64,000 nucleotides of DNA from Parabacteroides faecis (lineage in GTDB: Bacteria > Bacteroidota > Bacteroidia > Bacteroidales > Tannerellaceae), in the NCBI RefSeq assembly GCF_014647375.1, contig NZ_BMPB01000003.1, forward strand, positions 1-64,000. Reading direction: 5' to 3'. This document shows positions 1,232 through 18,356 of the stretch, in pieces. How positions within the stretch are numbered: position 1 is the first letter of the stretch; each line of letters opens with the position of its first letter. The notes beneath the pieces were generated by a model. The model ran no database searches and was not told the DNA's origin. It saw only the letters and a program-made list of their open reading frames with translations. The position numbers were made by a program, and so were the translations under genes.

Positions 1232-2180
1232 AGACGATCACCTCGCTATCGTAGCGTAACATCAACGTATTGTCACGCCAAGTATCTATATATTCCAAAC
1301 TCTCTCCTTGTATATATTCCCGAACAATATATTCCGGAAAGTTTGCCCCTGCATAATAAGAAAGCGGATATCCACCTCCAAAACGCGGGTTTATTTCGAT
1401 ACCCACCACATCGTGGTCTGATTCCCTGTAGAACAATTGGATACAAATACAACCTATTACTCCTGATAAATAATCCAACCGTTTTTTTAGGAACTGGACT
1501 AGAAAATTTTTTCTGGTAAAACCTTTGTTTATCTCACCGGCCCGAATCTCCACACGCTCACGAGGAATAATAGCTTTCACCCGATTATCTTTGCCATAAT
1601 ACATATCCACCGTAAACTCCTTATATTCACGCTTGTCTATGTATTCCATAAAGATCAATTTGGGATGATTCAAAATTTCCGGTGTTAATTCTTCCCTATT
1701 TCTTACTACATACAAATCCTTACTTAAAGAACCATCATAAGGCTTGGCAAAAAGAGGAAATGTAGGATGATTTTTATCAATCGGAGCTGGTACACGTATA
1801 TCATGTTCACTCAAAAATATACTTGTATTCCGTTTATCACGGCACGCTTGTATAAAAGCTAAGTCCGAAACAATTGGCTCTATTCCGTTTTTCTGAAACA
1901 ATTCCTTATTCTCTGCCAAGACCAAAAGTTCGGTATCAATTGTTGGTATGATTATGCCTACCTTTTGTCCTTTACATATTTGCAATAATTTATCTATATA
2001 ATCCGTTGCCGTAACTCTTGGAACTACAAAACATCCATCCGAAATAATCCCTGCGGGAGCCATATCCGGATTCATATCTGTGGTGAAGACTTTCGAATCT
2101 GAATAAAACCGTTTCAATGTTTCTTGAAATTTTTTTGTAAGAACCACACGTTTTCCTGCGGAAGTAATAAGTATATTCAT
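1221..2180 (-). CDS. ATP-grasp ligase (CarB-like) in polysaccharide operon
   Basis: About 319 residues opening MNILITSAGKRVVL, the standard start of a family of stand-alone ATP-grasp proteins annotated as carbamoyl-phosphate-synthase-like. An in-frame ATG two codons upstream (2186) is possible; I chose 2180 because the family begins at MNILITSAG. A Rossmann-like N domain is followed by ATP-grasp features: LFAKPYDGSLSKD, a YKEFTVDMYYG strand and the metal-binding VVGIEINPRFGGGYP. ATP-grasp enzymes join a carboxylate to an amine or thiol through an acyl phosphate. In a polysaccharide operon this suggests attachment of an amino acid or other acid to an aminosugar. The substrate is unknown. Confidence 0.8.
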   Translation of the reverse strand: MNILITSAGKRVVLTKKFQETLKRFYSDSKVFTTDMNPDMAPAGIISDGCFVVPRVTATDYIDKLLQICKGQKVGIIIPTIDTELLVLAENKELFQKNGIEPIVSDLAFIQACRDKRNTSIFLSEHDIRVPAPIDKNHPTFPLFAKPYDGSLSKDLYVVRNREELTPEILNHPKLIFMEYIDKREYKEFTVDMYYGKDNRVKAIIPRERVEIRAGEINKGFTRKNFLVQFLKKRLDYLSGVIGCICIQLFYRESDHDVVGIEINPRFGGGYPLSYYAGANFPEYIVREYIQGESLEYIDTWRDNTLMLRYDSEVIVYEK

Positions 2181-2189
2181 CTCCATAGC

Positions 2190-2798
2190 TTAGTTGTTAC
2201 CTGTAAAATATTCCTTCGTTGCCTGCCCCTCTTGAGAAATTCCTTCACGAACAAAGACTTTCTTTATCGTTAAAAATATAATTTTCAAATCAAGTAAAAA
2301 AGAGCAATGATCCACATACCAAACATCCAGTTCAAACTTCTTTGTCCACGAAATTGCATTACGCCCATTAACTTGCGCCCAACCTGTAATCCCAGGACGA
2401 ACTTCATGTCGACGTATCTGCTCTTTTGAATATAGAGGGAGATACTGCACCAACAATGGACGTGGACCAATTAATGCCATATCACCTTTAAGAACATTAA
2501 TCAATTGCGGTAATTCGTCGATCGAAGTAGAACGGACAAACCTCCCGACTTTCGTCAAACGTTTCTCGTCTGGTAAAAGATTTCCATCTGTATCACGTTC
2601 GTCCGTCATGGTTTTGAATTTGATTACCTTGAATATTTTACCCTTTTTACCTGGACGGTCTTGTAAAAAGAAAGCACCAGCCCCCTTGTTTGCAAAATGT
2701 AGCCAAAAGGTAATCAGAAGCAATATCGGCCAAATAATAGTTAATACACAGAATACGAGGATGAAATCAATCACTCTCTTAAAAAAGTTTTTATACAT
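2190..2798 (-). CDS. PglC/WcaJ-type initiating sugar-1-phosphate transferase
   Basis: A 202-residue monotopic polyprenyl-phosphate phosphoglycosyltransferase. It moves a sugar-1-phosphate from a nucleotide sugar to undecaprenyl phosphate and so starts each repeat unit on the cytoplasmic face. Visible are the N-terminal membrane helix (about residues 10-34), [20 protein letters not shown], the catalytic [10 protein letters not shown] (Asp-Glu dyad) and the [13 protein letters not shown] and [14 protein letters not shown] motifs typical of this family. The short length, with no extra four-helix N-terminal part, matches PglC rather than full WbaP/WcaJ. It sits between the deacetylase and the second ATP-grasp gene. 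Confidence 0.92.
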
Positions 2799-2844
2799 GG
2801 TAAATGAATATTACATCAACCCACTAAGCTCATCACCTATTGAG

Positions 2845-3696
2845 TTACATATGAATCACTGGTAATTCATCCCAGTTAATTTTAGCATCAGCTTCTTTTA
2901 CGCTACAAAAGTCAAAATCATAAATATATTTCGTAAACTTCTTAAAACAAGTATTTAGACCTACATAATTCTTAAAATACCGAGCAAGAGCAGACTCCCC
3001 ATCTAAAGTCGTAAACAAACGTTTCTGCTCTTTATCAAAATCCTTGATATGAAAATAGCTCATAACATAATTCGAATCAACTGTCAAAGCCTTTATCTTA
3101 AAATACGGGAACAGACGAAAGTAACCTCCCCCTGAATATACGATTTCACGTCCCCATATTGTAGATGGAGCTATCGGAAACTCTTTGATAGATACTCCAT
3201 CTATCTCTATTTTACCAGGGAACTTACTTTTATACTCCGGGAAACCACCAAAACTGCGACTGGTAGGAAAGATCGAACAATCATATAAAATACCAGCCTC
3301 TGCAAGAACAGACAAAATCCAACAATTCTCTCTCGTGATAGAAAACGCGGGCGCACGGTAAGCCGTCACTTTTTGACCGGTACAATCCTCTATCGTATTC
3401 AAAGCTTTATATGTATCTTCCCGAATCTCTTTTTCCGTAGGTTGTTTCCAAAAAGTATGGGAAAATGAATGACATCCTATATGATGTCCTCTATCCGCAA
3501 TGCATCTAACGACACTTGGATTTGAGACTGCAACTTCTCCTAAAATAAAGAAAGTTGCTTCGATATTTCTTTCATCCAATAAATCCAAAATATCCTGAAG
3601 GTATTTATCCAATCGTGGTTTCCAGTCTTGCCTATTTCCCAGTTTATAATAATCGTACCCCCACCAATCCTCTATATCAAATGTCAAAATATTCAT
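2845..3696 (-). CDS. NodB-type polysaccharide deacetylase
   Basis: A 283-residue protein opening MNILTFDIEDWW. The NodB domain fills the first ~190 residues: motif 1 is TFDIED (Asp7 and Asp10), the metal-binding HSFSH motif is His76-x3-His80, and YRAPAFS supplies motif 3. No signal peptide is visible, so it probably acts in the cytoplasm on a lipid-linked or nucleotide-bound N-acetyl sugar, or on a small metabolite, rather than on finished polymer. Members of this subfamily recur in Bacteroidetes exopolysaccharide clusters. It lies 46 bp upstream of the initiating transferase. Confidence 0.88.
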   Translation of the reverse strand: MNILTFDIEDWWGYDYYKLGNRQDWKPRLDKYLQDILDLLDERNIEATFFILGEVAVSNPSVVRCIADRGHHIGCHSFSHTFWKQPTEKEIREDTYKALNTIEDCTGQKVTAYRAPAFSITRENCWILSVLAEAGILYDCSIFPTSRSFGGFPEYKSKFPGKIEIDGVSIKEFPIAPSTIWGREIVYSGGGYFRLFPYFKIKALTVDSNYVMSYFHIKDFDKEQKRLFTTLDGESALARYFKNYVGLNTCFKKFTKYIYDFDFCSVKEADAKINWDELPVIHM

Positions 3697-3714
3697 ATTA
3701 CAACTCCTTTTATA

Positions 3715-4857
3715 TTAAAAACCTAATTTTGATTTTAAGAACGAAGGAGAACAGATCTTACAAAATCCAGATAACAAAGAAAACAACATCGCACCTTTTT
3801 CTTGATAATATAAATCCTCACCGAAAAATCTAAACCAAGATGGATTACACGAAAAACGTTTAGAAGAAGACAAAAACCATATAAAATCCAGTCCCAAATA
3901 ACGGAGTTGTTTATTGGGAATATAAAGGTATTTGTCAGATACTTTATTTAAAATATCTTTCACGATTATATCAGGAAAATTTACACCCGATATTTCTGCG
4001 GCTCGAATAGAAGCTGGCACACGAGGATTTATCTCTATTATCTTATAGTCGCCATCAATCGTTTTCAATATATCAAAATCTGCGAATCCTATCCAATTCA
4101 ATATAGACAGTGTTCTAGCACAAATATCTACTAACTTTTTTGATTCTATGGTCTTACAAAATGAACTACTTCCTCCTTTTACAGGAAAATATCGAATTAT
4201 CTCAATAATTACAGAATTAATAATTTCGCCTTGTTTATTCCTATAAAGCATTACATTATAATATGGAGAACCATCATTTTGGATATATTCCTGCAATGTA
4301 CATTCTCCGTATTGATTATATATTAAACCATATTTATTACACAAATCATTAAAATCATTAACCAATGTAATACCTCTAGCACCTACAGATAAATTAGGTT
4401 TAATTAAGGCCGGAAAACCAACAAAAGAAGCAGTTTCAAATAAAGTATCATAAGTCAATATTCTCGTTTTTGGATGTGGTATATTATTATTTTCACATAA
4501 TTCCATAAGCAACCATTTATCATTTGCTTTTTGAAAAACACAATAATCTGGTATCGCGCACTTCAAATGATAAGTTTTTTCTATATACTTTTTATATAAG
4601 CTTAACCAATCGGATGTCCTATCACTTAAAGGAATAATAACAGCAAATTCCTTATTATCCAAAATCCTGTACAAAAAACGAATACAATCCTCTGCTTTAT
4701 CTAAAGTTCCAAACGTTATATATATATCATCTATAAAATTTGATCTTACAGCCACATCATTCTTTTGTAACATGGCACAAACATAATATCCAGCCTTTTT
4801 CAAAGAACGAGCAACGGAAAGAGCTTGAAGCCCACCATCAATAATTAAAATATTCAT
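3715..4857 (-). CDS. ATP-grasp ligase, second copy in operon
   Basis: The protein starts at MNILIIDGGLQALSVARSLKKAGY; an in-frame ATG eight codons upstream adds only a hydrophobic leader-like stretch and is less likely. About 380 residues. The N-terminal pre-ATP-grasp domain is followed by FPALIKPNLSVGARGI (ATP-binding lysine and glycine-rich loop), CTLQEYIQNDGSPYYNVM and the metal-binding YKIIEINPRVPASIRAA. It is distinct in sequence from the ATP-grasp protein at 1221-2180. Probable role: ATP-driven ligation of a carboxylate substituent to a sugar or precursor. The coding region is very AT-rich compared with the operon head. Confidence 0.8.
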   Translation of the reverse strand: MNILIIDGGLQALSVARSLKKAGYYVCAMLQKNDVAVRSNFIDDIYITFGTLDKAEDCIRFLYRILDNKEFAVIIPLSDRTSDWLSLYKKYIEKTYHLKCAIPDYCVFQKANDKWLLMELCENNNIPHPKTRILTYDTLFETASFVGFPALIKPNLSVGARGITLVNDFNDLCNKYGLIYNQYGECTLQEYIQNDGSPYYNVMLYRNKQGEIINSVIIEIIRYFPVKGGSSSFCKTIESKKLVDICARTLSILNWIGFADFDILKTIDGDYKIIEINPRVPASIRAAEISGVNFPDIIVKDILNKVSDKYLYIPNKQLRYLGLDFIWFLSSSKRFSCNPSWFRFFGEDLYYQEKGAMLFSLLSGFCKICSPSFLKSKLGF

Positions 4858-4902
4858 AATTACAAAGAAATAAAATATCAATAAATTAATCTATAAAAAC
4901 TA

Positions 4903-5308
4903 TCACTCATTCATCTTTGCATTTTCTTTAATCCTTCTTGCTGAATTACCTGCAATAATACTATTTTCCGAAAAATCTTTCGTCACAACAGAACCCGCAC
5001 TGACTATACAATTATCACCAATATGTACACCAGGTAAAATAATAGAAGCTACTCCTATAAAACAATTGGCACCTATAAAAACATCTTTTTTCATATTTCT
5101 TGCCACGTCATGAGAAAGAATACGTACACCACCTCAACGTATTATCACCTATATGAATTCCACTAGGATTTATTGAAAGATCTAATCTTGCCCGCCAAGA
5201 AATACGAACATTATATCCTATATCTACCTTATATATCTTACGAAGATACCAAGGATAGAAGCGAACAAATAATTCCCATAAGAGAACTCTTAGTCTATTC
5301 AGTTTCAT
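4903..5308 (-). pseudogene. Hexapeptide-repeat acyltransferase split by a frameshift
   Basis: Two adjacent frames together make one ordinary small left-handed beta-helix acyltransferase. The first (5308 down to 5108, 66 residues) runs from MKLNRLRVLLWELF to SGIHIGDNT and then diverges. The second frame resumes the family pattern as GGVRILSHDVARNMKKDVFIG at about 5119, followed by IGVASIILPGVHIGDNC and the C-terminal SAGSVVTKDF and IIAGNSARRI. Rejoining them gives about 135 residues, normal for WbbJ/VatD-like O- or N-acetyltransferases of capsule loci. The break lies near 5118-5126 and needs net +1 or -2 bases. It may be a real inactivation or a base-calling error; no homopolymer explains slippage. 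Confidence 0.75.
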
Positions 5309-5310
5309 TT

Positions 5311-6231
5311 TTACACATCCTTTCTCTCAATAAAAAATTCCGAACTCAAATCAATCCCTGTATAAAAATGTCGTTCCCGCCTCTCTACTGGTGGTATTTG
5401 CATATAATCACCATACAAATTTTTTAAGTAAACATCTGGATTGTGAGGTAGATTTACCTCCATCCCCTCAAAGGATCCTTTTGAAACAGGAAAAAAGACC
5501 TCACGCTTTAAACATTCTCCATAACTCATTCTCCTCCCTGTTGGAATCGTACAATAATCCATTCCTGTACTAGATGATGCTAATTTATCAAAAAAACCAT
5601 ACATTCTTTCTCGACCCAAAGCTGAAAAAATAAAACCTATTATACATCTTGTTTTATAGTAAATACTAGCAACTCTATCTTTTTTAAAATATTTACTACG
5701 TATCTTTCTATTTTTATACTCCGATATAGACAATGATATTATTCTTAATAGATCTAAAAAAAAACATTTCAGTTTTCTTAACAATAGAATATCAGGCATT
5801 TTTTCAATAGCATAAATATCGACTAAAACATTATCGTATCCAGTCTTATTAAAAGGGGTTTTCAATACAGTATTCGATTTCAATATTTGCATATAAAGAG
5901 AGGTACAAAGTCCTCTATATCTAGGAACCGATAATATATACTTATCAGATAATTCTTTTTCAAACACCTCCTTCAACTTATCAAAATCCTCCCTTGGCAT
6001 CATCATATCAAAGTCATCGTCCCAAGGAATAAACCCCTTATGTCTAACGGCTCCCAATACAGATCCTCCACCTAACATCAATGTCAGACCATATTTATCA
6101 CATACCGATTTAACATCGATATAAATGGATAATAGACACTTTTTCAAGGCATCTCTTTCTTCATCAGTCAACTCATAAAAAAGATCTGACTGCCTCGCTA
6201 TTTCATTTAAATAATCAGAAGTTCTTTTCAT
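5311..6231 (-). CDS. LicD-family phosphotransferase
   Basis: A 306-residue LicD/FKRP-family protein. The diagnostic block spans residues 54-78: GGGSVLGAVRHKG followed by FIPWDDDFDMMM, with the metal-binding acidic cluster around Asp71-Asp75. LicD enzymes transfer phosphocholine, and relatives transfer phospho-alditols, from CDP-linked donors to glycans. Two genes upstream is a TarI/IspD-like cytidylyltransferase, which would make such a CDP donor, so the trio cytidylyltransferase-epimerase-LicD reads as a module for adding a phosphodiester substituent. It overlaps the upstream epimerase gene by 4 bp. Which group it transfers is not visible. Confidence 0.88.
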   Translation of the reverse strand: MKRTSDYLNEIARQSDLFYELTDEERDALKKCLLSIYIDVKSVCDKYGLTLMLGGGSVLGAVRHKGFIPWDDDFDMMMPREDFDKLKEVFEKELSDKYILSVPRYRGLCTSLYMQILKSNTVLKTPFNKTGYDNVLVDIYAIEKMPDILLLRKLKCFFLDLLRIISLSISEYKNRKIRSKYFKKDRVASIYYKTRCIIGFIFSALGRERMYGFFDKLASSSTGMDYCTIPTGRRMSYGECLKREVFFPVSKGSFEGMEVNLPHNPDVYLKNLYGDYMQIPPVERRERHFYTGIDLSSEFFIERKDV

Positions 6232-7292
6232 TCCGGATCATTATTACAACATTTTACTACTCGTTCAATACCTATACATAAAGGAATAGAAGGCTTCCAA
6301 CCTAACCTCTCCAATTTTGAAGTATCCAATCCAACTCTAACATAATCACAATAAACATTTGAATTATTTTCTGGGATATCATACTGTATCTGTAATCTCT
6401 TCCCAGGATTGAGATCAAGAAGCATTTCTGCTAATGAATAGATACTTACCTCTTCTGTCTCATTTGCCAGATTATATGCACTAGAGTTTTCCCCGTAAAA
6501 AAGAACATACATCAATCCTAATAAAGTATCCGTAATATAACAAAATGCTCTCAATGCTTTCCCTTTACTTTTCAATACGACATCATTACCTTTCACAACG
6601 AAACTTAATAAATCCGCCATCACACGACCATCATTATCCAGTCTCATACCCGGTCCGTACGTATGAGCTATACGTACAGAATTGAAACCTATTCCATATT
6701 GCAAGAAATAACTTTTACATAGAGTTTCTGCAGCTCGCTTACTTTCCGGGTAACATGAACGACTCTCCATACAATCTATATGTCCGAAAGAAGTTTCCGT
6801 CAAAGAAGTTTCACTTCTATTCTCACCATAGACTTCACGAGTGGAGGCAAATATTACTCTGTCCACCCCCTTTTCTCGCGCCAACTCCAATACATTTATA
6901 GTCCCCAATAGGTTACTTTTCATGATTCCTACAGGATCATTTTTTATATAAAAAGGACTGGCATTTCCTGCAAAATGAAAAATATAATCCAATCGGCTTA
7001 TAATACGAATCGGCTCACATACATCTTGAATCAATAATTCAAAATGAGAATCATCAAGAAAATCAACAAATAGTTCCTCCGATTTCTTCCGATTTCGTGA
7101 CAATGCTATAATATGAATATCCAAACCTTTCTCGCGGACAAGAGAAATTAATAGATAAATTAAATATGTAGCGATCATTCCATTCGCCCCAGTCACCAAA
7201 CAATATTTTCCATCCAAACGATCCCAAGAGATAGGAATATTAATCATCTCCTTCATATCGTTTTGTATAATCGTATTCTTATAACTAAACAT
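6228..7292 (-). CDS. Extended-SDR NAD-dependent epimerase/dehydratase
   Basis: A 354-residue extended short-chain dehydrogenase. The Rossmann loop reads VTGANGMIATYL, so the third glycine of the usual GxxGxxG is alanine. Further features are IFHFAGNASP, the STREVYGEN active-site strand, YPESK (catalytic Tyr-x3-Lys) and RIAHTYGPGMRLDNDGR, which is the UDP-xylose-synthase/dTDP-glucose dehydratase-like pattern. Most likely it oxidises, epimerises or reduces a nucleotide-bound sugar. Its place between the cytidylyltransferase and LicD suggests a CDP-linked sugar or alditol (compare the NDP-mannitol branch of some pneumococcal capsules). The 4-bp overlap with licD supports a shared pathway. Confidence 0.82.
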   Translation of the reverse strand: MFSYKNTIIQNDMKEMINIPISWDRLDGKYCLVTGANGMIATYLIYLLISLVREKGLDIHIIALSRNRKKSEELFVDFLDDSHFELLIQDVCEPIRIISRLDYIFHFAGNASPFYIKNDPVGIMKSNLLGTINVLELAREKGVDRVIFASTREVYGENRSETSLTETSFGHIDCMESRSCYPESKRAAETLCKSYFLQYGIGFNSVRIAHTYGPGMRLDNDGRVMADLLSFVVKGNDVVLKSKGKALRAFCYITDTLLGLMYVLFYGENSSAYNLANETEEVSIYSLAEMLLDLNPGKRLQIQYDIPENNSNVYCDYVRVGLDTSKLERLGWKPSIPLCIGIERVVKCCNNDPE

Positions 7293-7298
7293 AATCTA

Positions 7299-8033
7299 TC
7301 AAAAGCCAAAGATTTGTTGATTCTCATGTACATCCACCATCGCCTTGAAAATAAAATAATCTGTTGGTGTTGTGATTTTTATATTTTCCATCGGACCTAT
7401 AATCGTATGTAGCCTGTATCCATAGGCGCTCATCATGGAACAGCTATCAACAAAATCATGTTTTTCCTCTTGCAATGCTCTACGATGAGCCAATAAAACA
7501 TCAGACAATACAAAACTTTGAGGAGCACGCGCCACCAAAGAATCTTTTCTGGAGGGTATTTCTAGCTCTCCTTCGGACTTAGAAACCACAAATGTTTCGA
7601 CCGCAGGAATACAAGTAATACACGATCCATATTGACGCACGGCTTTTATATTATCAGAAATAGTCTGCCCTGTAATCAACGGTCTAACCCCATCATGAAT
7701 TAATACGCAACTATTTTCTGCAAATAGTTTTTCCGCAGCCATCAACCCTTTATAAATAGAATCCTGTCCAGTATCTCCTCCAGGAACGATAGAACAAACT
7801 TTAGTTATCTCGAATTTACGAATCAATTTCTCCAGATAAGGTATCCAATCTGTTATACACGATACTATAATACCATCAATAGCAGGATGATTGTCAAAAA
7901 TTTCAAGAGTATAGATAATGATAGGTTTCCCTCTCAATTCCAAAAACTGCTTGGGCTTTGACACCGTATTCATTCGTTTACCAGAACCTCCAGCAAAAAT
8001 AACAGCTATATTACCCCTTCTTTTTATATCCAT
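7299..8033 (-). CDS. TarI/IspD-family cytidylyltransferase
   Basis: The chosen start gives MDIKRRGNIAVIFAGGSGKRM, close to the usual beginning of the family; an upstream ATG (8075) would add 14 residues and overlap the previous gene's stop. The protein has the nucleotide-binding FAGGSGKRM with SKPKQFLEL, the LIHDGVRPLI metal/CTP motif and RAPQSF, all typical of 2-C-methylerythritol-4-phosphate or ribitol-5-phosphate cytidylyltransferases. The position inside a capsule operon, next to an SDR and LicD, favours a TarI-like role: CTP plus a sugar- or alditol-phosphate giving a CDP-linked donor, rather than isoprenoid IspD. Confidence 0.85.
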   Translation of the reverse strand: MDIKRRGNIAVIFAGGSGKRMNTVSKPKQFLELRGKPIIIYTLEIFDNHPAIDGIIVSCITDWIPYLEKLIRKFEITKVCSIVPGGDTGQDSIYKGLMAAEKLFAENSCVLIHDGVRPLITGQTISDNIKAVRQYGSCITCIPAVETFVVSKSEGELEIPSRKDSLVARAPQSFVLSDVLLAHRRALQEEKHDFVDSCSMMSAYGYRLHTIIGPMENIKITTPTDYFIFKAMVDVHENQQIFGF

Positions 8034-8061
8034 AAGTTTGTGTTTTAGATTTATAAAATAT

Positions 8062-8907
8062 TTATCCCATTCCAAATATAATTCTACCCCATTTGACTAT
8101 TTTATATTTCATCAAAGTCCACATAGAAATAGGAAACGGTAAATCTTTGAAATGATTCATATAAAGATAAGACTCTTTAACATATCGAATAGGAGCAAAT
8201 AATAAACATTTTAACATTTGTTTTACAGAATATCCAGAATCTTGAAATCCAGCAACATTCTCTCCATGTTGTCTATAATAAATAAGTGGTTCATCCACAA
8301 ATCCTGCATAACCAAAATGAGATACTATCAATATTGTCCAATGATCATGAAACTTCCAATTTTTATATGGAAAAAGTAGTGACTTTGTAATCCTATTAAA
8401 CATCATAGTACAACCATAAGAAGGAGATCCATAAACAATCAATTTATACAAATCAAATACATTTTCAGGGTTCCTATGACATCTTTTCCACAAAGAATCA
8501 GATATTATATTTAAAGACTTATCTACTATATACAAATTCGTGAATACTGCAATAGCATTATGAGCATGATTCATCTCTAATGATTTCATTTTCAAATAGG
8601 TCTTTTCTATCTTAGAAGGAAGCCATACATCATCTTGGTCACAAAACATATAATAATCAGAATCAATTGATGATAACAGTTTCATAAACGAACGTCCTGA
8701 TCCTAAATTCCCTAATCTATCATATTCATAAATGATTTTATCAGGATAATTACCAACATAAGTTTTAATTATACGGATAGTCCTATCCGTTGAGCCATCA
8801 TCTCGAATATATAATATCCAATCCTTATAAGTTTGGCTTAATATCGATTCTATTTGGTCCTTCAAATAGCACTCTCCATTATAGGTGGACATCAATATAG
8901 CTATCAT
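8062..8907 (-). CDS. Family 2 glycosyltransferase (rhamnosyltransferase-like)
   Basis: A 281-residue GT-A fold enzyme opening MIAILMSTYNGECYLKDQI. GT2 landmarks are QTYKDWILYIRDDGSTDRT, the DxD-containing MFCDQDDVWLP (metal and nucleotide-sugar binding) and a later HDHWTI segment, where the catalytic base region lies in this subgroup. The CDQDDVW form is common in putative rhamnosyltransferases of O-antigen clusters. No membrane segment is obvious; it should act on the inner face of the cytoplasmic membrane, extending the lipid-linked repeat unit. It follows the Wzy-like gene after a 170-bp gap, the longest inside the operon. Confidence 0.87.
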   Translation of the reverse strand: MIAILMSTYNGECYLKDQIESILSQTYKDWILYIRDDGSTDRTIRIIKTYVGNYPDKIIYEYDRLGNLGSGRSFMKLLSSIDSDYYMFCDQDDVWLPSKIEKTYLKMKSLEMNHAHNAIAVFTNLYIVDKSLNIISDSLWKRCHRNPENVFDLYKLIVYGSPSYGCTMMFNRITKSLLFPYKNWKFHDHWTILIVSHFGYAGFVDEPLIYYRQHGENVAGFQDSGYSVKQMLKCLLFAPIRYVKESYLYMNHFKDLPFPISMWTLMKYKIVKWGRIIFGMG

Positions 8908-9077
8908 TTCAACATATATTTATGAATTAACGATATAGTTATTTCTTATCTCTGTATCCTATCATATTTTTTGTCAATAGGAAACGGTCATACCAAATCT
9001 CAAACAACATTTTCCAATCATAGAAAAAATAAAATAAAACACCGCATTATTTTCATTATTCATCAATACTTTAACAC
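8908..9077 (-). other. AT-rich intergenic gap inside the polysaccharide operon
   Basis: This is the widest gap between genes of the operon, about 170 bp and very rich in A and T. I see no ORF, no TAnnTTTG promoter box on the minus strand and no clear terminator hairpin. It may mark the join of two gene blocks assembled by recombination. Confidence 0.5.
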
Positions 9078-10307
9078 TCATTTTTTAACACAAATAGATA
9101 TCTTTATTTTTAGGAATAAATAAATAATAAAGCAAATAATATAATCAATCACATAATTATCTGCCCAAGAAAAAACCCCTATAAACAACTTAACATAAAC
9201 ATATGTAAAAAAACAGACATCCTCAATATTATAACGTTTAATATTCAATAAAATAAAAGAATAAACAAATACAATAAGAGCTATAAAAAAAGTTATATAA
9301 GGACCTACATCTACATAAATACTACCAACAAATGTATAAAATTTCGTAATCCATCTTGTACCTAATGTAAAGTTCATAAATGCATCATTTCCATATAAAA
9401 ATTCACATCCATAAATTCCATATCCATATTCAGAAATAGGATATACACCTACATTCCAAAATAAAAAAGACTGTCCCATATAACTTAACAATGAAGTCAG
9501 TCCATTATATGTTTCATAAATATTATAAGAAGTATCAAAATCTCCAAATCTAGAAACAGTGACAGTAAAAAAATAAACAGTGGCAATAAAAATGGAAGAA
9601 AATAGAATTTTATTTATCAATTTAATAGTCTTATATGGTAAGTTTTTTTTAAACAATAAATAAGGAGTAATTATAGATATAAAAAAAATAACAAAAACCC
9701 CTCTACCTCCTCCTTTTAAAGATAATAATGATATCGAAAAAAACATACAAAATAACAATATGTACAATAGAGATTTACTTTTATTATTTGTCAACATGAA
9801 AAAACATATAACAGACATAAAAATAGTTGATTGAGAATTAAAAACAACAAGAATTTGTTCAAGAAAAAAATGATAATTAAAAGCTACATCTAATTCACTA
9901 GAAGCTTTTTTAATATCCCCCCATTCTCCAGAATAAATATTTGATATAACATCGTTTATAGACAAATAAAAAACAACAACAGTAGATAAGATATACACAT
10001 ATATTAAAAAATACATCTTTTTCCATCGTCCTTTCGCGTAAATATTTGTAAGATTTCGTATATCTACCTTTACAAAATATCTAACAAACATTATAAATAC
10101 AATAAATAAATAGATAAAAGGTTCTAATGTTATATCATCTACATCATGTAACAATTCTATTGAAAGATAATATCTAGGTATCGCAAATATTGCAACAATA
10201 GTATATAACGCAATTAATATAACACCTAAAATATTTTTCTCACGACTAAACATATAGAATAATAGTAAGAATATATAAAGTAAAGCATTAACTATTACGT
10301 AGATCAT
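9078..10307 (-). CDS. Wzy-like O-antigen/capsule repeat-unit polymerase
   Basis: A 409-residue polytopic membrane protein with roughly eleven hydrophobic segments from the first residue (MIYVIVNALLYIFLLLFYMF) to the C-terminus, and a larger soluble loop around residues 245-320. Such proteins are poorly conserved in sequence. The assignment rests on topology, on its place between glycosyltransferases and a Wzx flippase, and on the absence of another polymerase candidate in the operon. It would join lipid-linked repeat units on the periplasmic face. The gene is the most AT-rich in the window, as is usual for horizontally exchanged polymerase genes. Confidence 0.75.
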   Translation of the reverse strand: MIYVIVNALLYIFLLLFYMFSREKNILGVILIALYTIVAIFAIPRYYLSIELLHDVDDITLEPFIYLFIVFIMFVRYFVKVDIRNLTNIYAKGRWKKMYFLIYVYILSTVVVFYLSINDVISNIYSGEWGDIKKASSELDVAFNYHFFLEQILVVFNSQSTIFMSVICFFMLTNNKSKSLLYILLFCMFFSISLLSLKGGGRGVFVIFFISIITPYLLFKKNLPYKTIKLINKILFSSIFIATVYFFTVTVSRFGDFDTSYNIYETYNGLTSLLSYMGQSFLFWNVGVYPISEYGYGIYGCEFLYGNDAFMNFTLGTRWITKFYTFVGSIYVDVGPYITFFIALIVFVYSFILLNIKRYNIEDVCFFTYVYVKLFIGVFSWADNYVIDYIICFIIYLFLKIKISICVKK

Positions 10308-10312
10308 AAAAC

Positions 10313-11332
10313 CTATCTTATAGCTTTTTTTATGTAAACCATCATAACCAAAACAGTAAACAACAATACATCAGACAATCTATGTATAAAATATAAGCCT
10401 ATGGAAATTTTTTCAATTCTATTATTAGTTGTATATTTATTGAATTTCATATCGCTATAAAACCCAACAATCCCCCTATACTTCTCATTCATATTCATTT
10501 TATCAGAAGATAAAATATATTCACCCCAAACTCGAACAGATCTGTAAATACTATGTAATAAAATATCCTGAAGAGTTATATCTTTAATCTCTCTTATATA
10601 AGATTTTTTATACAGAAGAAAATCCATCAACATACCAACCTCTCTTATTGATAAATGACTTTGTATCCTATCCATAAAAGAGTTAGATCTTATATAATAT
10701 GAATATGTAATATTATTAATGTACGAAAAAGATTGAACACATCTTTCTACATTAAAAGAAAAATATAGATCTTCACAATTATGTCCAGCTATACAACGTA
10801 TACAGTTCTCCTTTAAAAAAGATAGACTATACAACTTATTCCATGTATATACAGGAAATATATGATTTTCAACATAATGATAGTTTATTAATATCCCTAC
10901 CCCTCTTCTATTTACATTATCCAACCGTAGTTGCTCAGACACCATTCCATTCATATTTATGGATTGGCTTGATCCTACCACCATATCGACCTTTTCTTCC
11001 ATCATCTTATCATACAACACCTGTATGCAATCAGGAGTGATCTCATCATCGCTATCCATAAAAAACAAATATTCTCCTTGGGCATTATCTATAGCTGTAT
11101 TTCTAGTAGCACCAAGTCCAACATTATATGGATGCTCTATAATACGGACATCTTTCCCTCTCGGATGGTCTTTGATGATCCGACGAACGATCTCCATACT
11201 ATTATCTGTCCCTCGATCGTCCACTAACAAAAACTCGATACTTTCAAATGTTTGATTCAATGCAGATAGTAAAGCACGTTCCACATACGGAGCCACATTA
11301 TATATCGGCATAGACAGGGTTACTTTGTACAT
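10313..11332 (-). CDS. Family 2 glycosyltransferase
   Basis: A 339-residue GT2 enzyme opening MYKVTLSMPIYNVAPYVERAL. The GT-A domain covers about the first 210 residues, with QTFESIEFLLVDDRGTDNS, the loop GLGATRNTAI and the metal-binding FMDSDDEI. A hydrophobic stretch near the C-terminus (about residues 310-335) may anchor it to the inner membrane. Donor and acceptor sugars cannot be inferred. The start overlaps the end of the flippase gene by 13 bp, and the polymerase follows 5 bp after its stop. Confidence 0.87.
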   Translation of the reverse strand: MYKVTLSMPIYNVAPYVERALLSALNQTFESIEFLLVDDRGTDNSMEIVRRIIKDHPRGKDVRIIEHPYNVGLGATRNTAIDNAQGEYLFFMDSDDEITPDCIQVLYDKMMEEKVDMVVGSSQSINMNGMVSEQLRLDNVNRRGVGILINYHYVENHIFPVYTWNKLYSLSFLKENCIRCIAGHNCEDLYFSFNVERCVQSFSYINNITYSYYIRSNSFMDRIQSHLSIREVGMLMDFLLYKKSYIREIKDITLQDILLHSIYRSVRVWGEYILSSDKMNMNEKYRGIVGFYSDMKFNKYTTNNRIEKISIGLYFIHRLSDVLLFTVLVMMVYIKKAIR

Positions 11333-12774
11333 TCTATATATATATTTTTTATTTTCAACACTATCTGATCTACTTCACTTATTCTAAAAATAAGACAAAA
11401 TAATATGTAAACCAATAAACCTATAAGGCAGCCTATCGTCAATTGTTCTAATAAGTATCCTTTAAAAAATTGTATGCTTAAATAAACTACACCTCCTGTT
11501 AGCAATGAGATAAAAAAGAAAGGCATTATATTACGAATTTGTTCCAAATATTTTACAGATATTACTTTCTTTGAATAATAGAAAATAATTACCATATCAA
11601 AGAAATTATATACAACTATTCCCCAACATAGTGTCCAAACTCCAAAAGGTAAAGTAATAAACAGTATAGTAATAGCTATCACTTTCTTAAGAATCTCTGC
11701 ATAAAGAAAATAATCAGAACGTCCTTTTACATTTAATATCTGATTATTGACAACCATCACCGGATACCACATATAAGCAAAACATAATATGGAAAGCAAT
11801 TCAGCAACCGGAAGCCATTTCTCTGTCAGTAACAATAATATTAATGGTTTAGACAAAGTAGCCACAATAATCATCAACGGAAATACAATAAAACAAGACA
11901 TTCTTAAGTACTTGATAAAAGATGTTTTAAGGCGTTTATCATCATCTTGCATTTCGCACTGTATTGGATAAATTACTCTATTAATAATCCCCACTATATT
12001 TATAGAAGGAAAACTGGCAAATTGGTACGCCCTATTATAAAAACCTACATCCATAGAAGAATATCGCTTTCCTATTACTAAGCTGTACAAATTTATATAA
12101 ATTGTATGCAATAATCCTGACAACAATAATTTAGAACCAAAAGAGAATAATACGCTAAAAGATTCTCTTGAAAATGTCCATTTTGGAACCCACTTAGCAA
12201 ATATCCATAATAATAATGTATTCAACAGACTATTTGATAAAGTCTGAAATACTAATGCCCACACACCCCAGCCCTTATATGCCAGCAAAATTCCTATTAT
12301 CCCACTGATCAGTACAGCAGTCAAAGAAGCTTTAGCTTGTTTTTTAAAGTCTACATTGATTGTCAATTTAGCCCGTTGGACAATAGAAAAACCTGATATA
12401 ATAATATTCAATCCTATCCAACGTGTTACAGGAGACAAATCAGGTTCCTTATAAAAGGATGCTATGTAAGGTGCGCTGATATACAGAAGTAAATAAAAGA
12501 CTATCGAAATAAGACTATTAAAATAAAAAACTGTTGAAAAATCAGTTTCCGTACGATCCTTCTTCTGTATCAAAGCATTGGAGAAACCACTGTCCACAAA
12601 GACTTGTGCAATAGCCAAAAAGATATTCAGCATTGCTATCAATCCATAATCAGAAGGCAACACCAAACGGGCTATAATGATAGTCAGTACAAACTGTATC
12701 CCCTGTACGGAAAACCGTTCAACAGCACTCCACATCACGCCTTTTACAGCTTGATGTTCTAATGAATCACTCAT
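11320..12774 (-). CDS. Wzx-type lipid-linked oligosaccharide flippase
   Basis: A 484-residue integral membrane protein of the MOP superfamily. The N-terminus (AVKGVMWSAVERFSVQGIQF, then IIIARLVLPSDYGLIAM) is the usual signature of the WzxC/lipopolysaccharide biosynthesis subgroup, followed by about 12-14 hydrophobic segments. It should translocate undecaprenyl-diphosphate-linked repeat units to the periplasmic face for the Wzy polymerase. Located between the nucleotide-sugar synthesis block and the first glycosyltransferase, with a 13-bp overlap with the latter. Confidence 0.9.
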   Translation of the reverse strand: MSDSLEHQAVKGVMWSAVERFSVQGIQFVLTIIIARLVLPSDYGLIAMLNIFLAIAQVFVDSGFSNALIQKKDRTETDFSTVFYFNSLISIVFYLLLYISAPYIASFYKEPDLSPVTRWIGLNIIISGFSIVQRAKLTINVDFKKQAKASLTAVLISGIIGILLAYKGWGVWALVFQTLSNSLLNTLLLWIFAKWVPKWTFSRESFSVLFSFGSKLLLSGLLHTIYINLYSLVIGKRYSSMDVGFYNRAYQFASFPSINIVGIINRVIYPIQCEMQDDDKRLKTSFIKYLRMSCFIVFPLMIIVATLSKPLILLLLTEKWLPVAELLSILCFAYMWYPVMVVNNQILNVKGRSDYFLYAEILKKVIAITILFITLPFGVWTLCWGIVVYNFFDMVIIFYYSKKVISVKYLEQIRNIMPFFFISLLTGGVVYLSIQFFKGYLLEQLTIGCLIGLLVYILFCLIFRISEVDQIVLKIKNIYIECTK

Positions 12775-12798
12775 ATAGCTTAAATGGGAATAAATTTA

Positions 12799-13749
12799 TT
12801 ATTTCAAGTGGGACTCTTTTATTTTATTCTCGAAATATCTAATTGTCTTTATCAATCCTTCATCCAATGGGATAATAGGTTCCCAATCCAATTTATCTTT
12901 CGCCAATGTAATATCTGGCTTCCGTTGTTTCGGATCATCACCAGGTAACGGATAATACACAATCTTTGATTTCGAATTTGTCAACTCTATCACTTTCTCT
13001 ACCAATTCCAACATCGTAAACTCTCCCGGGTTCCCTGTATTGATAGGGCCAATAAAGTCATCACCGGTAGCCATCATACGGATCATGGCTTCTATCAAAT
13101 CGTCTATGTATTGGAAACTTCTAGTTTGAGTTCCATCTCCATAGATTGTGATATCTTCACCTTTTAACGCTTGTACGATGAAATTAGAAACGACACGTCC
13201 GTCATTCGGATTCATTCGTGGACCATACGTATTGAAGATGCGGATGATTTTAATTCGTACACCGTTCTGACGATGATAGTCCATAAACAAAGTTTCGGCT
13301 GCGCGTTTGCCTTCATCGTAACAACTACGAATTCCAATTGGGTTCACATTTCCCCAATAAGATTCTACCTGCGGATGAATAGCCGGATCTCCATACACTT
13401 CGCTGGTCGATGCCTGGAGAATCTTTGCTTTAGTTCGTTTAGCCAACCCCAACATATTCATTGCTCCATAAATGGAGGTTTTCATTGTCTTGATGGCATT
13501 ATATTGATAATGAGGAGGCGATGCAGGACAAGCCAAATTATAAATCTCATCGACCTCAGCATAATAGGGAGAGGTTACATCGTGACGAACCAACTCAAAG
13601 TTGTCATACTGCAACAGGTGACGAATATTATCCTTACTTCCGGTAAAATAATTATCCAGGCAAATCACATCATTGCCTTCTTTCACCAAACGTTCACATA
13701 AATGGGAACCAAGAAAACCGGCTCCACCCGTTACTAATATACGTTTCAT
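12799..13749 (-). CDS. UDP-glucuronate decarboxylase (UDP-xylose synthase)
   Basis: A 316-residue extended SDR beginning [28 protein letters not shown] at residues 8-14 is the NAD-binding loop, Tyr144-x3-Lys148 (YDEGK) is the catalytic pair, and [22 protein letters not shown] with [11 protein letters not shown] are hallmarks of the UXS family. It converts UDP-glucuronate to UDP-xylose with CO2 loss. The upstream gene makes UDP-glucuronate and overlaps this start by 4 bp, so the two reactions are coupled. Xylose, or a 4-keto-pentose derived from it, is therefore a likely repeat-unit component. Confidence 0.93.
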
Positions 13750-15062
13750 TTTTGTCCGATTCTCGAATAAATAAAACCTAACTCTTTCAATTCTTCACCA
13801 TCATAGATATTCCGTCCATCCACAACCACGTAATTCTTCATGGCTTTACGGATGATAGCCCAACTAGGCATACGGAATTGTTTCCACTCCGTCATCAAAG
13901 CAATAGCATCTGCATCGATCACTGCTTCATACATATCCTTACAATAAGTGACTACATCCCCTATCCTACGCTTTGTTTCATCCATAGCTATAGGATCGAA
14001 TACATTGACCACAGCACCTGCTTTCAGGAGTTTATCAATCACAACCAACGCAGGAGCTTCGCGCATATCGTCTGTTTCAGGTTTAAAAGACAATCCCCAC
14101 ATAGCAATAGTTTTACCTTTCAGATCTCCATTAAAAGCCTTACTCAATTTATCAAACACAATATTCTTTTGCTCTTCATTTACCGATTCTACAGCTTCTA
14201 TAACACGCATGTGGTATCCGTTTTCTATTCCCGTATGCAATAGAGCTTTTACATCCTTTGGAAAGCAGGAACCTCCATACCCACAACCGGCATACAGGAA
14301 ACGGCTACCGATACGGGAATCCGCCCCCATACCTTTACGCACATTGTCTACATTTGCTCCGATACGTTCACAGAGATTTGCTATATCGTTCATAAAGCTG
14401 ATACGGGTTGCTAACATGGCATTTGCTGCATATTTCGTCATTTCAGCTGAAGGAACATCCATGATCAGGATGGGATAGCCATTCAATGTGAAAGGACGAT
14501 ATAATTTCTCCATCATTTTCTTTGCCTGTTCACTTTCAACTCCGACCACCACCCGGTCCGGAGCCATAAAGTCTTTAATGGCTGCTCCTTCTTTCAGAAA
14601 TTCAGGATTAGATGCCACATCAAAAGGTATAGCAACTCCCCGTTTATTTAATTCTTCCTGAATAGCAGCCTTTACTTTCTGGGCAGTTCCAACCGGAACC
14701 GTACTTTTCGTTACAAGTAATGTATATTTATTGATGAAACGACCAACTGTATGTGCCACATCTAAAACATATCTCAAATCGGCACTTCCATCTTCTTCTG
14801 GGGGAGTTCCTACAGCACTGAAAACAACAGATACATTATCTAAACAAGTGGTGAAATCAGTTGTGAAATGTAACCTACCTGCTTCTACATTTTTTTTAAC
14901 CAAGTCTTCTAAGCCTGGTTCATAGATTGGCATTACACCTGACTGCAAAGCTTTTATCTTCGCTTCATTGATATCCACACAGGTCACATCTACTCCCATT
15001 TCAGAGAAACAAGTACCTGTAACCAGGCCTACATAGCCTGTTCCTACAATTGCAATATTCAT
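13746..15062 (-). CDS. ugd: UDP-glucose 6-dehydrogenase
   Basis: A 438-residue UDP-glucose/GDP-mannose dehydrogenase-family enzyme. The NAD loop is [10 protein letters not shown] (residues 7-16), the substrate region includes [12 protein letters not shown], and the catalytic cysteine is Cys266 in [10 protein letters not shown]. It oxidises UDP-glucose twice to UDP-glucuronate with two NAD+. The pattern [11 protein letters not shown] with PDRVVVG is the UDP-glucose type rather than the UDP-N-acetylmannosamine type. It stands directly between the membrane dehydratase and the UXS gene and is well conserved, in contrast to the AT-rich genes further down the operon. Confidence 0.95.
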
Positions 15063-15070
15063 TATTAGAA

Positions 15071-17005
15071 TTATTTATCCAGTTTTTCGTACTCCGAATT
15101 CTTACTCATGAACTCCGGCACAATCGATTTCATCACTTTCACTGTTTCCAACTTTTCTACTCGAATAGCCAAATTTACCAAATGCGAAACGATAGTTGAT
15201 ATATCAGTAAAATTATATTCCCTCACTTTCGCATGAAAGATTTTAGTATTGTTTGTAGGAAGAGTATTTTCTTTGGTTGCCAGCAACTCTTCATACAACT
15301 TCTCACCCGGGCGAAGGCCGGTATATTTTATTTCGATATCTTTTTCGGGAATAAGACCAGCCAATTCTATCATTCGACGTGCTAGGTCGGCAATCTTTAC
15401 TGGAGTACCCATATCAAATACGAAAATCTCATTTCCTTTTCCCATAAAAGCTGCTTCCAAAACAAGACGACAGGCTTCAGGGATCGTCATGAAATAACGG
15501 ATAATATCAGGATGGGTGACTGTTAAAGGGCCGCCTTTCGCCAGCTGTTCACGGAAACGAGGAATAACAGAACCGTTACTACCTAATACATTACCAAAGC
15601 GGGTAGTGATAAAACGGGTTTTTCCCGGGTGTAATCCTTTGCTTATCGCAATACTCAGGCTTTGCACATAGATCTCTGCCAGGCGTTTGGAAGCCCCCAT
15701 CACATTGGTTGGATTGACTGCCTTATCGGTAGAGATCATAATAAATTTATCTGTTCCATATTTTACGGACATGTCAGCCATATTACGGGTTCCCTGGACA
15801 TTGGTATGTACAGCTTCACAAGGATTTTCCTCCATCAGAGGGACATGTTTATAGGCTGCTGCATGAAAGACATATTGGGGATGGAAACTTTTAAAAACAC
15901 TTTCTACACGGGCTAGCATCCGGACATCACCCATAATCGGAGTGAAAACAACATCCGGGAATCGGTCTTCCAACTCCAGACGGATGGTATGCATAGGTGT
16001 CTCGGCACTGTCAAACAAGATCAGTTGCTTCAAACCAAATGTACAAAGTTGTCGACAAAGCTCACTACCGATAGATCCGGCAGCACCTGTAACCATAACG
16101 ACTTTACCCCCTAATTCATCTGCAATCTCTTTCAGATTAATATTAATTTCATCACGTCCTAACAGATCTTCGATACGGACCTCCGGTAGATTTCGTAAAT
16201 TGACTGTCCCCCCTTTTAACTCATCCACGGTAGGAAGCATCAACATACGAACCTTTTTCCGCTCACAATAACGAACCAGGCGTTCACTTTCTGCTTTTAC
16301 TGCATGATAGTCGGTAAACAAAATAGCCTTGATACCTTTTCGGTTTACCAAACCATTAAATTCCAACTGATCCTTTACCGAATAGACCGGACATCCTCCT
16401 ATGCGGATCTTACTTCTTTTTCCTATTCGTATATATCCTTCGATCTGATAATTATCAGATTGTTTCCAAAGAGAAATCGCAGGCGAATTAGAGACAGCGT
16501 CTTCTTCCTTGTAAATTAACAGCTTTTCGTTATTGGAAGCCACACTTTTGACTATCATGCTATACATTATTATTAATAAAGCACGAAATATCGTCAAAAC
16601 GAAGAAAGTCAGGAATAGGTCAAGCCCCCCCCCTAAAAAGATTTGTAGAAAAGATAACGAGTGGATAAAACAGGAAAGAGCAGAAGTCATCAAAGCAACT
16701 TTCACAAAAGAGGCAATAGCAATACGCCCCGTTTCTGTAAAAGTTGAATGACGAATAATACCTTTATAAGTCTGGCAGGAAAGAAAACTGATTGTACTGC
16801 AAACGATAGCAAAGAGGTTTATATAAATAAACTCATGTATCGGCAGATTTATTTTCAAAATATTGCCAAGGGTCGCAAAAACTAAAAAAGTAGATAAAAC
16901 TGAGAAAAATAGGTCTATAAAAAAGATTATCCAGCGATTAAAGTATTTTTGCTTCGAGAACAGAATGATAAGATCGTTGATTTTCAACACATTAATACTA
17001 GCCAT
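15071..17005 (-). CDS. WbpM/PglF-type membrane nucleotide-sugar 4,6-dehydratase, operon head
   Basis: A 644-residue protein with four N-terminal membrane helices (roughly residues 24-50, 60-78, 95-118 and 122-150), a degenerate Rossmann-like middle domain and a C-terminal SDR domain. GAAGSIG at 307-313 binds NAD(P). The catalytic residues follow the Ser-Met-Lys pattern of WbpM (STDK at 425-428, then Met436-x3-Lys440) with Met in place of the usual Tyr. Family members convert UDP-GlcNAc to the 4-keto-6-deoxy sugar used for QuiNAc, FucNAc or bacillosamine. As the first gene of the operon, its 5' region includes the candidate invertible promoter. No UpxY/UpxZ-type antitermination genes precede it. 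Confidence 0.93.
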   Translation of the reverse strand: MASINVLKINDLIILFSKQKYFNRWIIFFIDLFFSVLSTFLVFATLGNILKINLPIHEFIYINLFAIVCSTISFLSCQTYKGIIRHSTFTETGRIAIASFVKVALMTSALSCFIHSLSFLQIFLGGGLDLFLTFFVLTIFRALLIIMYSMIVKSVASNNEKLLIYKEEDAVSNSPAISLWKQSDNYQIEGYIRIGKRSKIRIGGCPVYSVKDQLEFNGLVNRKGIKAILFTDYHAVKAESERLVRYCERKKVRMLMLPTVDELKGGTVNLRNLPEVRIEDLLGRDEININLKEIADELGGKVVMVTGAAGSIGSELCRQLCTFGLKQLILFDSAETPMHTIRLELEDRFPDVVFTPIMGDVRMLARVESVFKSFHPQYVFHAAAYKHVPLMEENPCEAVHTNVQGTRNMADMSVKYGTDKFIMISTDKAVNPTNVMGASKRLAEIYVQSLSIAISKGLHPGKTRFITTRFGNVLGSNGSVIPRFREQLAKGGPLTVTHPDIIRYFMTIPEACRLVLEAAFMGKGNEIFVFDMGTPVKIADLARRMIELAGLIPEKDIEIKYTGLRPGEKLYEELLATKENTLPTNNTKIFHAKVREYNFTDISTIVSHLVNLAIRVEKLETVKVMKSIVPEFMSKNSEYEKLDK

Positions 17006-17075
17006 ATTTCACAAAAATGTTCGTCAGTCCCAAAATGAGACTAACACTTAAAGCTTATTTTTCAAAGCATACATA

Positions 17076-17127
17076 AGAAAAAGAGTGACTAGAAAAAACG
17101 ATCGTTTTTTCTAGTCACTCTTTTTCT
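17076..17127. repeat. 52-bp perfect palindrome, left repeat of the switch
   Basis: Both arms of 26 bp (17076-17101 and 17102-17127) are exactly complementary. The centre is AAACGATCGTTT, and the sequence runs out through CTAG and GTGACT-type arms. The middle 32 bp (17086-17117) recur at 17262-17293. The central motif differs by one base from the ARACGTTCGT-like core I recall for B. fragilis capsule-promoter repeats. It lacks a long T-run after the stem on either strand, so a plain terminator is the weaker reading. Confidence 0.9.
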
Positions 17128-17196
17128 GTTTAAAATCGTTAATTGCTGATTAACAGATATTTTGCTAAATTCAAAGACAGCATATTGATATTTAAG

Positions 17197-17210
17197 AGAA
17201 TAATTATTCT
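17197..17210. repeat. 14-bp palindrome upstream of the invertible promoter
   Basis: AGAATAATTATTCT is a perfect palindrome 8 bp upstream of the -33 element and lies inside the candidate invertible segment. It could be a binding site for a dimeric regulator that would travel with the promoter on inversion. It could also be chance in AT-rich DNA. Confidence 0.35.
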
Positions 17211-17218
17211 GAAAACAC

Positions 17219-17249
17219 TTTGATTATTGGATTATAAAGAATACTTTTG
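17219..17249 (+). promoter_or_regulatory. Bacteroides-type promoter inside the inverted repeats, facing right
   Basis: TTTG at 17219-17222 (-33), a 19-bp spacer, and TACTTTTG at 17242-17249 match the Bacteroidetes primary-sigma consensus (TTTG, then TAnnTTTG) without a mismatch. The start of transcription would be near 17256, just before the right palindrome. In the present orientation transcripts run toward the nuclease gene at 17443; after inversion they would run into the polysaccharide operon. Confidence 0.75.
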
Positions 17250-17258
17250 CACACAAAT

Positions 17259-17296
17259 AAATGACTAGAAAAAACGATCGTTTTTCCTAGTCATTT
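17259..17296. repeat. 38-bp near-perfect palindrome, right repeat of the switch
   Basis: Arms 17259-17277 and 17278-17296 pair at 18 of 19 positions; the only mismatch is A17269 against C17286. The same AAACGATCGTTT centre and the same TGACTAG/CTAGTCA flanks as the left palindrome are present. The single C is the only thing that gives the shared core a direction. Confidence 0.9.
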
Positions 17297-17395
17297 CACT
17301 TCAATTCAATCAATTATTCAGTCTTATTTCTTAATTTATATATATAGATACAAAAACAATTCTATTTTTACACCGTGTATTAAAGAATAATTGCA

Positions 17396-17403
17396 TACAT
17401 TTG
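17396..17403 (+). promoter_or_regulatory. Possible -7 box of the Rpn-family gene
   Basis: TACATTTG matches TAnnTTTG and would give a start near 17410, 33 nt before the ATG at 17443. No good -33 TTTG is found 19-21 bp upstream. The gene may therefore have its own weak promoter in addition to the invertible one. Confidence 0.4.
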
Positions 17404-17442
17404 CTGAAACTCTATTTACAGAGGTAACTAAAACAATTGATT

Positions 17443-18342
17443 ATGAACAAATTTGTTAATCCATTCTCAGACTACGGCTGGAAAAAGATTTTTGGCAGTG
17501 AAGTAAGTAAAGATCTTATCATCAGTTTCCTTAATGAAGTCATTCAACAAGAAGTAATCGTAGACATCACCTTTCGCAATGTAGAGATGCTTGGTCTGAA
17601 ACAAGACCAACGGCGTGCCGTGTTCGATATTTTCTGCGAAAATGAAAAGGGAGAAGTTTTTATTGTTGAAATGCAAAAAAGCCGACAGAAATACTTCTCC
17701 GACAGAGTGCTGTATTATGCATCATTTGCTATCCAACAACAATCCATGATCGTAAAAGAGAAGTTGGAGAAGGAACCGGATGAAAGGATTCGCAAACGGT
17801 GGAACTATCACATAAGTAAAGTATATGTCATTTGCGTACTAAACTATATCATGGAACCATCACGTTCGGAGAAATACCGTTGGGATATTGTACGCATGGA
17901 TCGGGAACTGAAGATTCCTTTCAGTGAAACGCTTAATGAAATCTATCTGGAAATGCCGAAATTTGTATTACCTTTGCATGAGTGTGATACGCTTTATAAG
18001 AAGTGGTTATATGTATTAAATAATATCGAGATCATGGAACGATTACCTGAAGAACTGAATAATCAGATATTCCGCAAACTGAAAAGTATTGTGGAAGTAG
18101 AAAGAATGACTCCTGATCAACGACTGGAATATGAACTGAGCCTCTCTGTAGAACGTGACCTTTCCGCTGCACTCGATACCAGTTTTGATGATGGCATGGA
18201 GAAAGGGGTAGAAAAAGGAAAAGTTGAAGGAAAAGCAGAAGAACAACGCCTTATTGCTGCTAATTTCAAAAAGAAGGGAATTAATATCGAAACAATTGCC
18301 CAATGTACAGGTCTGTCAGTCGAAGAAATTGATAAATTGTAA
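17443..18342 (+). CDS. Rpn-family PD-(D/E)XK nuclease / putative transposase
   Basis: A 299-residue protein starting MNKFVNPFSDYGWKKIFG at the ATG; a TTG two codons earlier is less likely. The nuclease core is VFDIFCENEKGEVFIVEMQ, supplying the Asp and Glu-x-Gln of the PD-(D/E)XK fold, followed by FSDRVLYYAS. The C-terminal part has a short Lys/Glu/Gly-rich linker (MEKGVEKGKVEGKAEEQ) and a helix-turn-helix-like tail ending in GLSVEEIDKL. Relatives are recombination-promoting nucleases found in many copies in Bacteroidales genomes and sometimes called transposases. No terminal inverted repeats or target duplication are visible. It is transcribed away from the polysaccharide operon and lies downstream of the promoter as presently oriented. 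Confidence 0.85.
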   Translation: MNKFVNPFSDYGWKKIFGSEVSKDLIISFLNEVIQQEVIVDITFRNVEMLGLKQDQRRAVFDIFCENEKGEVFIVEMQKSRQKYFSDRVLYYASFAIQQQSMIVKEKLEKEPDERIRKRWNYHISKVYVICVLNYIMEPSRSEKYRWDIVRMDRELKIPFSETLNEIYLEMPKFVLPLHECDTLYKKWLYVLNNIEIMERLPEELNNQIFRKLKSIVEVERMTPDQRLEYELSLSVERDLSAALDTSFDDGMEKGVEKGKVEGKAEEQRLIAANFKKKGINIETIAQCTGLSVEEIDKL

Positions 18343-18356
18343 CTTATCCATTATAA

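Follow-up and report, generated by a model that had tools for sequence, protein, structure and literature searches.

We found that positions 17076-17296 of the analyzed stretch of Parabacteroides faecis DNA (64,000 nt, hereafter the window, which is the start of contig C3 in a genome of 6.66 Mb) contain two palindromic sites enclosing a promoter, and that the segment between them (17101-17278) is very probably a phase-variable promoter segment, with the adjacent polysaccharide operon OFF as sequenced. The initial annotation had proposed an invertible promoter caught in the OFF state, and this proposal is supported by a genome-wide family of paired sites, a protein of the Mpi family, a two-base rule of site pairing, and inversions between orthologous loci with like sites in sister genomes. 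From these comparisons we infer that the window pair inverts as well.

Anatomy of the switch locus

The features of the locus and its surroundings are as follows.

536-15062, (−) strand: further same-strand genes, read together with the next gene as one polysaccharide operon
15071-17005, (−) strand: operon gene 1, Polysacc_synt_2 nucleotide-sugar dehydratase/epimerase (Pfam match)
17076-17127: putative left recombination site, a palindrome with perfect 26-bp arms; 32-bp consensus site at 17086-17117, central dinucleotide AT at 17101-17102
17101-17278: segment predicted to invert, bounded by the two crossover dinucleotides, the exchange point being placed by pair matching and by natural inversions at other loci
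17219-17249, (+) strand: Bacteroides-type promoter TTTG-N19-TACTTTTG, perfect match, directed away from the polysaccharide operon (OFF)
17259-17296: putative right recombination site, a near-perfect palindrome (95% complementary); consensus site at 17262-17293, central dinucleotide AT at 17277-17278
About 17386-18345: Rpn unit, with a −7-like box TACATTTG at 17396-17403
17443-18342, (+) strand: Rpn family (PDDEXK_2) nuclease gene beyond the right site, judged not to be the main target

The two palindromes had been described as sharing a 32-bp core with one differing base and as having centers 176 bp apart. Both the coordinates and the core alignment agree with this description, with a direct-repeat spacing of 176 bp and cores 1 base apart. 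Both sites score 0 mismatches to the consensus derived for the family, and a 28-bp core occurs twice in the window (≤3 mismatches) versus 0 times in 100 dinucleotide shuffles. The perfect promoter reported earlier within the segment was likewise recovered, on the (+) strand and pointing away from the operon; we take its TTTG upstream element to be part of the Bacteroides-type promoter. On the opposite strand of the segment, a script search for promoters of the TTTG-N19-TAnnTTTG type returned none.

The initial annotation further placed the promoter 71 bp from the first polysaccharide gene. This figure is right for the gap between the outer edge of the left palindrome (17076) and the operon start codon (17005) and wrong as a distance from the promoter. 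Simple arithmetic places the inverted promoter at 17130-17160 on the (−) strand, in agreement with the leader of ~120 nt that had been predicted for the ON state.

Polysaccharide genes extend leftward from 17005 almost to the contig's first base. The product of the first gene (15071-17005) is presumably CapD-like, and the genes at 536-15062 encode a UDP-sugar dehydrogenase, epimerases, a flippase, GT2 glycosyltransferases, an IspD-like cytidylyltransferase, LicD, ATP-grasp enzymes, a deacetylase, a sugar transferase, and a HAD hydrolase; a Pfam search with one further frame within the operon (9078-10307) gave no match.

Paired sites form a genome-wide family

Searching the P. faecis genome with the core of the window sites revealed 19 places at 15 loci (≤3 mismatches), and a wider consensus matched 49 sites, while the reversed-pattern control yielded 0 in either search. 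A script assembled 24 site pairs in this genome (G000), with a spacing of 141 to 176 bp. In comparison, three sister genomes contained 48 (G013, P. goldsteinii), 54 (G009, P. gordonii), and 47 (G038) sites, with 1, 0, and 0 matches, respectively, in the reversed controls. Altogether, 100 pairs were obtained over the four genomes: 24 in G000, 24 in G013, 28 in G009 (drawn from 50 listed of its 54 sites), and 24 in G038. Sites at ≤2 mismatches were present in 18 of 39 genomes of the genus, P. faecis included.

The genes next to the pairs vary. Polysacc_synt_2 genes neighbor the window pair as well as the pairs at loci L006 and L012, and Glycos_transf_4 genes neighbor those at L009 and L011; other neighbors include a TonB-type receptor (L005) and ECF sigma factors (L007 and L010).

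One switch class (L040-L048, on contigs C1, C4, C5, C10, and C16) has exactly 173 bp between sites and mostly TT centers, and lies upstream of large proteins. A scan of ten of these large proteins detected DUF6383 at the end of one (L042:2217-5597) and gave no Pfam match for the remaining nine, each of which was truncated by the stretch fetched.

Three sites lacked a partner under the pairing rule: a lone consensus site on contig C12 (L017:2687), a site at a contig end (L104), and the third member of an array in L099. The L099 array of P. goldsteinii consists of three sites (at 1567, 1744, and 1918), two of them direct copies and one inverted.

Partner sites agree at two central bases

The central dinucleotide of one site was the reverse complement of its partner's in 99 of the 100 pairs, having been left free during pair choice. 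Permutation of the 100 pairs yielded 33.5 matches on average and at most 53 in 20000, and in the P. faecis genome, where central dinucleotides agreed in 24 of 24 pairs, the permuted mean was 7.3 and the maximum 17; these figures are not probabilities because the pairs, like the comparisons, share ancestry. The single exception comprised two wrongly matched sites of the L099 array, and once this array was dropped, both central positions agreed in 99 of 99 pairs (z about 12). Away from the center, agreement above z 3 was seen at 1 of 15 outer-arm positions (z 3.1) and at 5 of 15 inner-arm positions (highest 9.6).

As judged from the aligned sites, this pattern best fits a serine recombinase with a 2-bp stagger. 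A tyrosine recombinase acting across a 6-8 bp spacer is disfavored, as agreement on the outer side stops at the central two bases; however, agreement on the inner side continues beyond them, which limits this argument, and the bases next to the center are uninformative about a tyrosine spacer because they are invariant.

Both window sites have an AT center. An AT core is itself palindromic and, therefore, cannot alone enforce inversion over deletion. The initial annotation had pointed out that the window core differs by one base from the B. fragilis core; this difference falls in the central dinucleotide, which is variable between loci and equal within a pair. The within-pair rule also makes it simple to test from sequence which palindromes form one switch.

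An Mpi-family recombinase is encoded away from the sites

On contig C13 lies the gene for a 200-aa protein whose score on NF009949, the Mpi family model, is 323 bits (curated cut-off 272). Two PF00239 paralogues, on contigs C2 and C7, reach 188 and 185 bits on the same model, under the cut-off, and a fourth PF00239 match lies within a 621-aa frame on contig C20. The mpi gene does not adjoin the paired sites; on its contig, ~19 kb separate it from the closest pair. Mpi is the enzyme that we infer to act on the sites, and one enzyme probably reads all 24 paired sites of the genome. Relatives of the C13 protein were found in 36 of the 39 genus genomes, ranging from 100% identity down to weak matches. 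In two genomes (G005 and G024), Mpi is present at 78% identity, and this form of the site is absent. Another (G022, a draft of 490 contigs) holds 15 sites, together with Mpi-like matches that are 24-45% identical and mostly fragments; since it has sites but no close Mpi match, the link between sites and Mpi is not perfect.

A degenerate, partnerless Mpi-like site lies in the leader of mpi itself (L049:2374-2405; contig C13, 214873-214904). Its 32 bases are identical in the four genomes, 57-58 nt before the start codon. A shorter core of the element is kept in 14 aligned Mpi loci out of 29 scored and was placed 57-61 nt before the start in 13 of these 14; the element was absent (13-17 mismatches) from the 15 further Mpi loci, and one start could not be located. 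In the four genomes, the element breaks the C next to the crossover that all 200 paired sites keep, a base that the search pattern itself favors. No pair was formed with this element, and the pairing rule would not start from so degenerate a site. On one reading, it may be a binding-only operator and, on another, a conserved leader RNA element.

These observations can be combined in a broader model, which we regard as tentative and, taken as a whole, doubtful; its probability, like that of the phase-variable promoter reading, is lowered slightly by the sites of G022, which lacks a close Mpi, and by the 15 Mpi loci with no leader element. A single Mpi would run the entire switch family and set its own level through the copy in the mpi leader, which it could bind but not recombine; the central dinucleotide would act as a pairing code barring recombination between locus classes; and the feedback would help to hold nearly all switches OFF (0 or 1 ON per genome).

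Natural inversions between sister genomes

Next, we consider the orientation of the segments between genomes. Among 34 cross-genome comparisons with both flanks matched, some of which share loci, 2 were inverted and 32 had the same orientation. Specifically, the flanks of L096 (P. goldsteinii) and L153 (G038) are 92.3 and 92.5% identical, and the segment between them is 93.5% identical when inverted versus 60.0% as is. In this comparison, the two sites have exchanged their inner arms and kept their outer ones. The second case, L086 versus L157, involves AT centers like those of the window; here, the flanks match at 92.5 and 81.0%, and the segment matches at 95.7% inverted versus 61.3% as is. 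The simplest account of these natural inversions is exchange at the site core, and the two cases place the exchange there without the need for reads. Six more inverted calls were supported by one flank only, five of them involving L157 and one (L105 versus L116) being weak.

The same data bear on the idea that an ordinary fixed promoter is flanked by palindromes acting as transcription terminators or structural hairpins. The left palindrome folds at −34.2 kcal/mol, and 5 of 7 terminator-like calls in 16900-17500 sit on it, where 0.1 would be expected in all. However, such pairs occur at 24 places with matched central dinucleotides, segments of the same kind are inverted between sister genomes, and a hairpin role could coexist with recombination. 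We consider a purely terminator-based explanation very unlikely, and it is rejected as a full account because of the pairing rule and the natural inversions.

For the window switch, we searched the sister genomes for the ON orientation and found none, as the homologues identified share its orientation. The window and the related switches L006, L093, L123, and L148 have one common orientation, the window being matched by its operon-side flank only. It is because these related switches agree in orientation that inversion at the window locus itself is put forward as probable rather than observed.

Across the four genomes, 71 of the 100 pairs could be scored for orientation, i.e., had a clear promoter and one clear target, and 68 of these were OFF and 3 ON, an excess that says little about frequencies within populations, since an assembly displays one orientation. 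The ON pairs are L012, L120, and L157, with none in P. goldsteinii (G013); L012 is a polysaccharide switch of the P. faecis genome. The 29 unscored pairs had no gene start within 230 nt (n = 13), no promoter match (n = 11), ambiguous features (n = 3), or targets on both sides (n = 2). The window itself is unscorable in this count because genes start on both sides.

The shared orientation of the window and its four relatives, together with the 68 OFF calls among 71 scorable pairs, would also be expected of a switch that was once invertible and is now fixed in its present orientation. We consider this improbable: the two sites are 1 base apart in 32, the promoter match is perfect, and the OFF excess is family-wide, including L086, whose orthologue L157 is ON.

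The Rpn gene on the far side

As sequenced, the promoter faces the Rpn nuclease gene; the reading frame of this gene starts past the right site, at a distance of 143 nt (TTG) or 149 nt (ATG). The segment could, accordingly, be a two-way switch, with one orientation driving the Rpn gene and the other the polysaccharide operon. This arrangement is unlikely given what is seen elsewhere. Relatives of the Rpn gene that are 78-90% identical recur at six loci of other genomes, none of which contained a site when scored (best 7-8 mismatches, versus 0 for both window sites). The homology starts at about 17385-17387 at three of the six loci (L053, L070, and L056), and a TAnnTTTG box is aligned to 17396-17403 at four (the same three and L071). 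In addition, the related switch L006 has no gene start on its far side. Judging by these alignments, we read the Rpn gene as an independent unit that has a promoter of its own.

We also weighed whether the palindromes are ends or targets of a neighboring Rpn (PDDEXK_2) element. The 19 core matches fall into 15 loci; PDDEXK_2 matches are nearby at 3 of these, but the other 12 have no close match (there are 17 in the genome), and the Rpn unit of the window begins 90 bp outside the right site. This explanation has next to no probability in our judgment and is rejected, because 12 of 15 core loci have no close Rpn match and the six Rpn relatives have no sites.

Proposed mechanism

Returning to the phase-variable promoter as the preferred reading, we propose that each palindrome would be bound by a dimer of the Mpi-family serine recombinase, which would make cuts staggered by 2 bp at the central AT, and that strand exchange would then invert ~176 bp. 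This mode of action is modeled on serine invertases in general. In the present state, the promoter reads rightward, leaving the operon, which runs leftward from 17005, OFF; in the inverted state, it would be directed at the operon, giving a leader of ~120 nt. Orientation would, on this model, set operon expression. The locus thereby marks the polysaccharide operon as probably phase-variable in this gut Parabacteroides, and the OFF state of the assembly matters to anyone reading expression from this genome.

Comparison with known systems

Serine invertases such as Hin and Gin act on palindromic sites with a 2-bp crossover and invert the DNA between inverted copies. The Parabacteroides switches resemble them in their palindromic sites and 2-bp crossover, and differ in that mpi is not beside the sites. 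Mpi-controlled invertible promoters of the polysaccharide loci of Bacteroides fragilis were reportedly described by Krinos in 2001 and Coyne in 2003, and Fletcher is said to have described phase-variable surface glycoproteins and polysaccharides of Parabacteroides distasonis in 2007. Among the papers listed by our literature searches, which covered few subscription journals, none concerned, by title and abstract opening, promoter inversion in P. goldsteinii or P. gordonii or a site in the mpi leader; a search with the core letters gave no relevant paper among the matches listed.

For P. distasonis, a member of the same genus and a different species, promoter inversion has been proposed for polysaccharide loci (PMC9409006). 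For B. fragilis, PMC4747536 states that Mpi inverts 13 regions, seven of which are polysaccharide promoters, and gives the −7 consensus as TAnnTTTG. PMC12632263 describes the single global invertase and a UpxY/UpxZ layer.

The switches analyzed here are like the B. fragilis Mpi system in having a promoter segment flanked by inverted sites, an Mpi-family serine invertase, the −7 element TAnnTTTG, and many loci, polysaccharide operons included. The Parabacteroides sites are long palindromes (TGACTAGAAAAAACGNNCGTTTTTTCTAGTCA). Unlike the B. fragilis polysaccharide loci, the operon is not headed by a UpxY (NusG-like) gene, its first gene being Polysacc_synt_2, and the two NusG-domain matches in the genome, on contig C9 and at C2:20492, lie away from the sites. 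The window locus is a further case of the well-known class of Mpi-type invertible promoters, in a genome with 24 site pairs versus the 13 regions reported for B. fragilis (PMC4747536).
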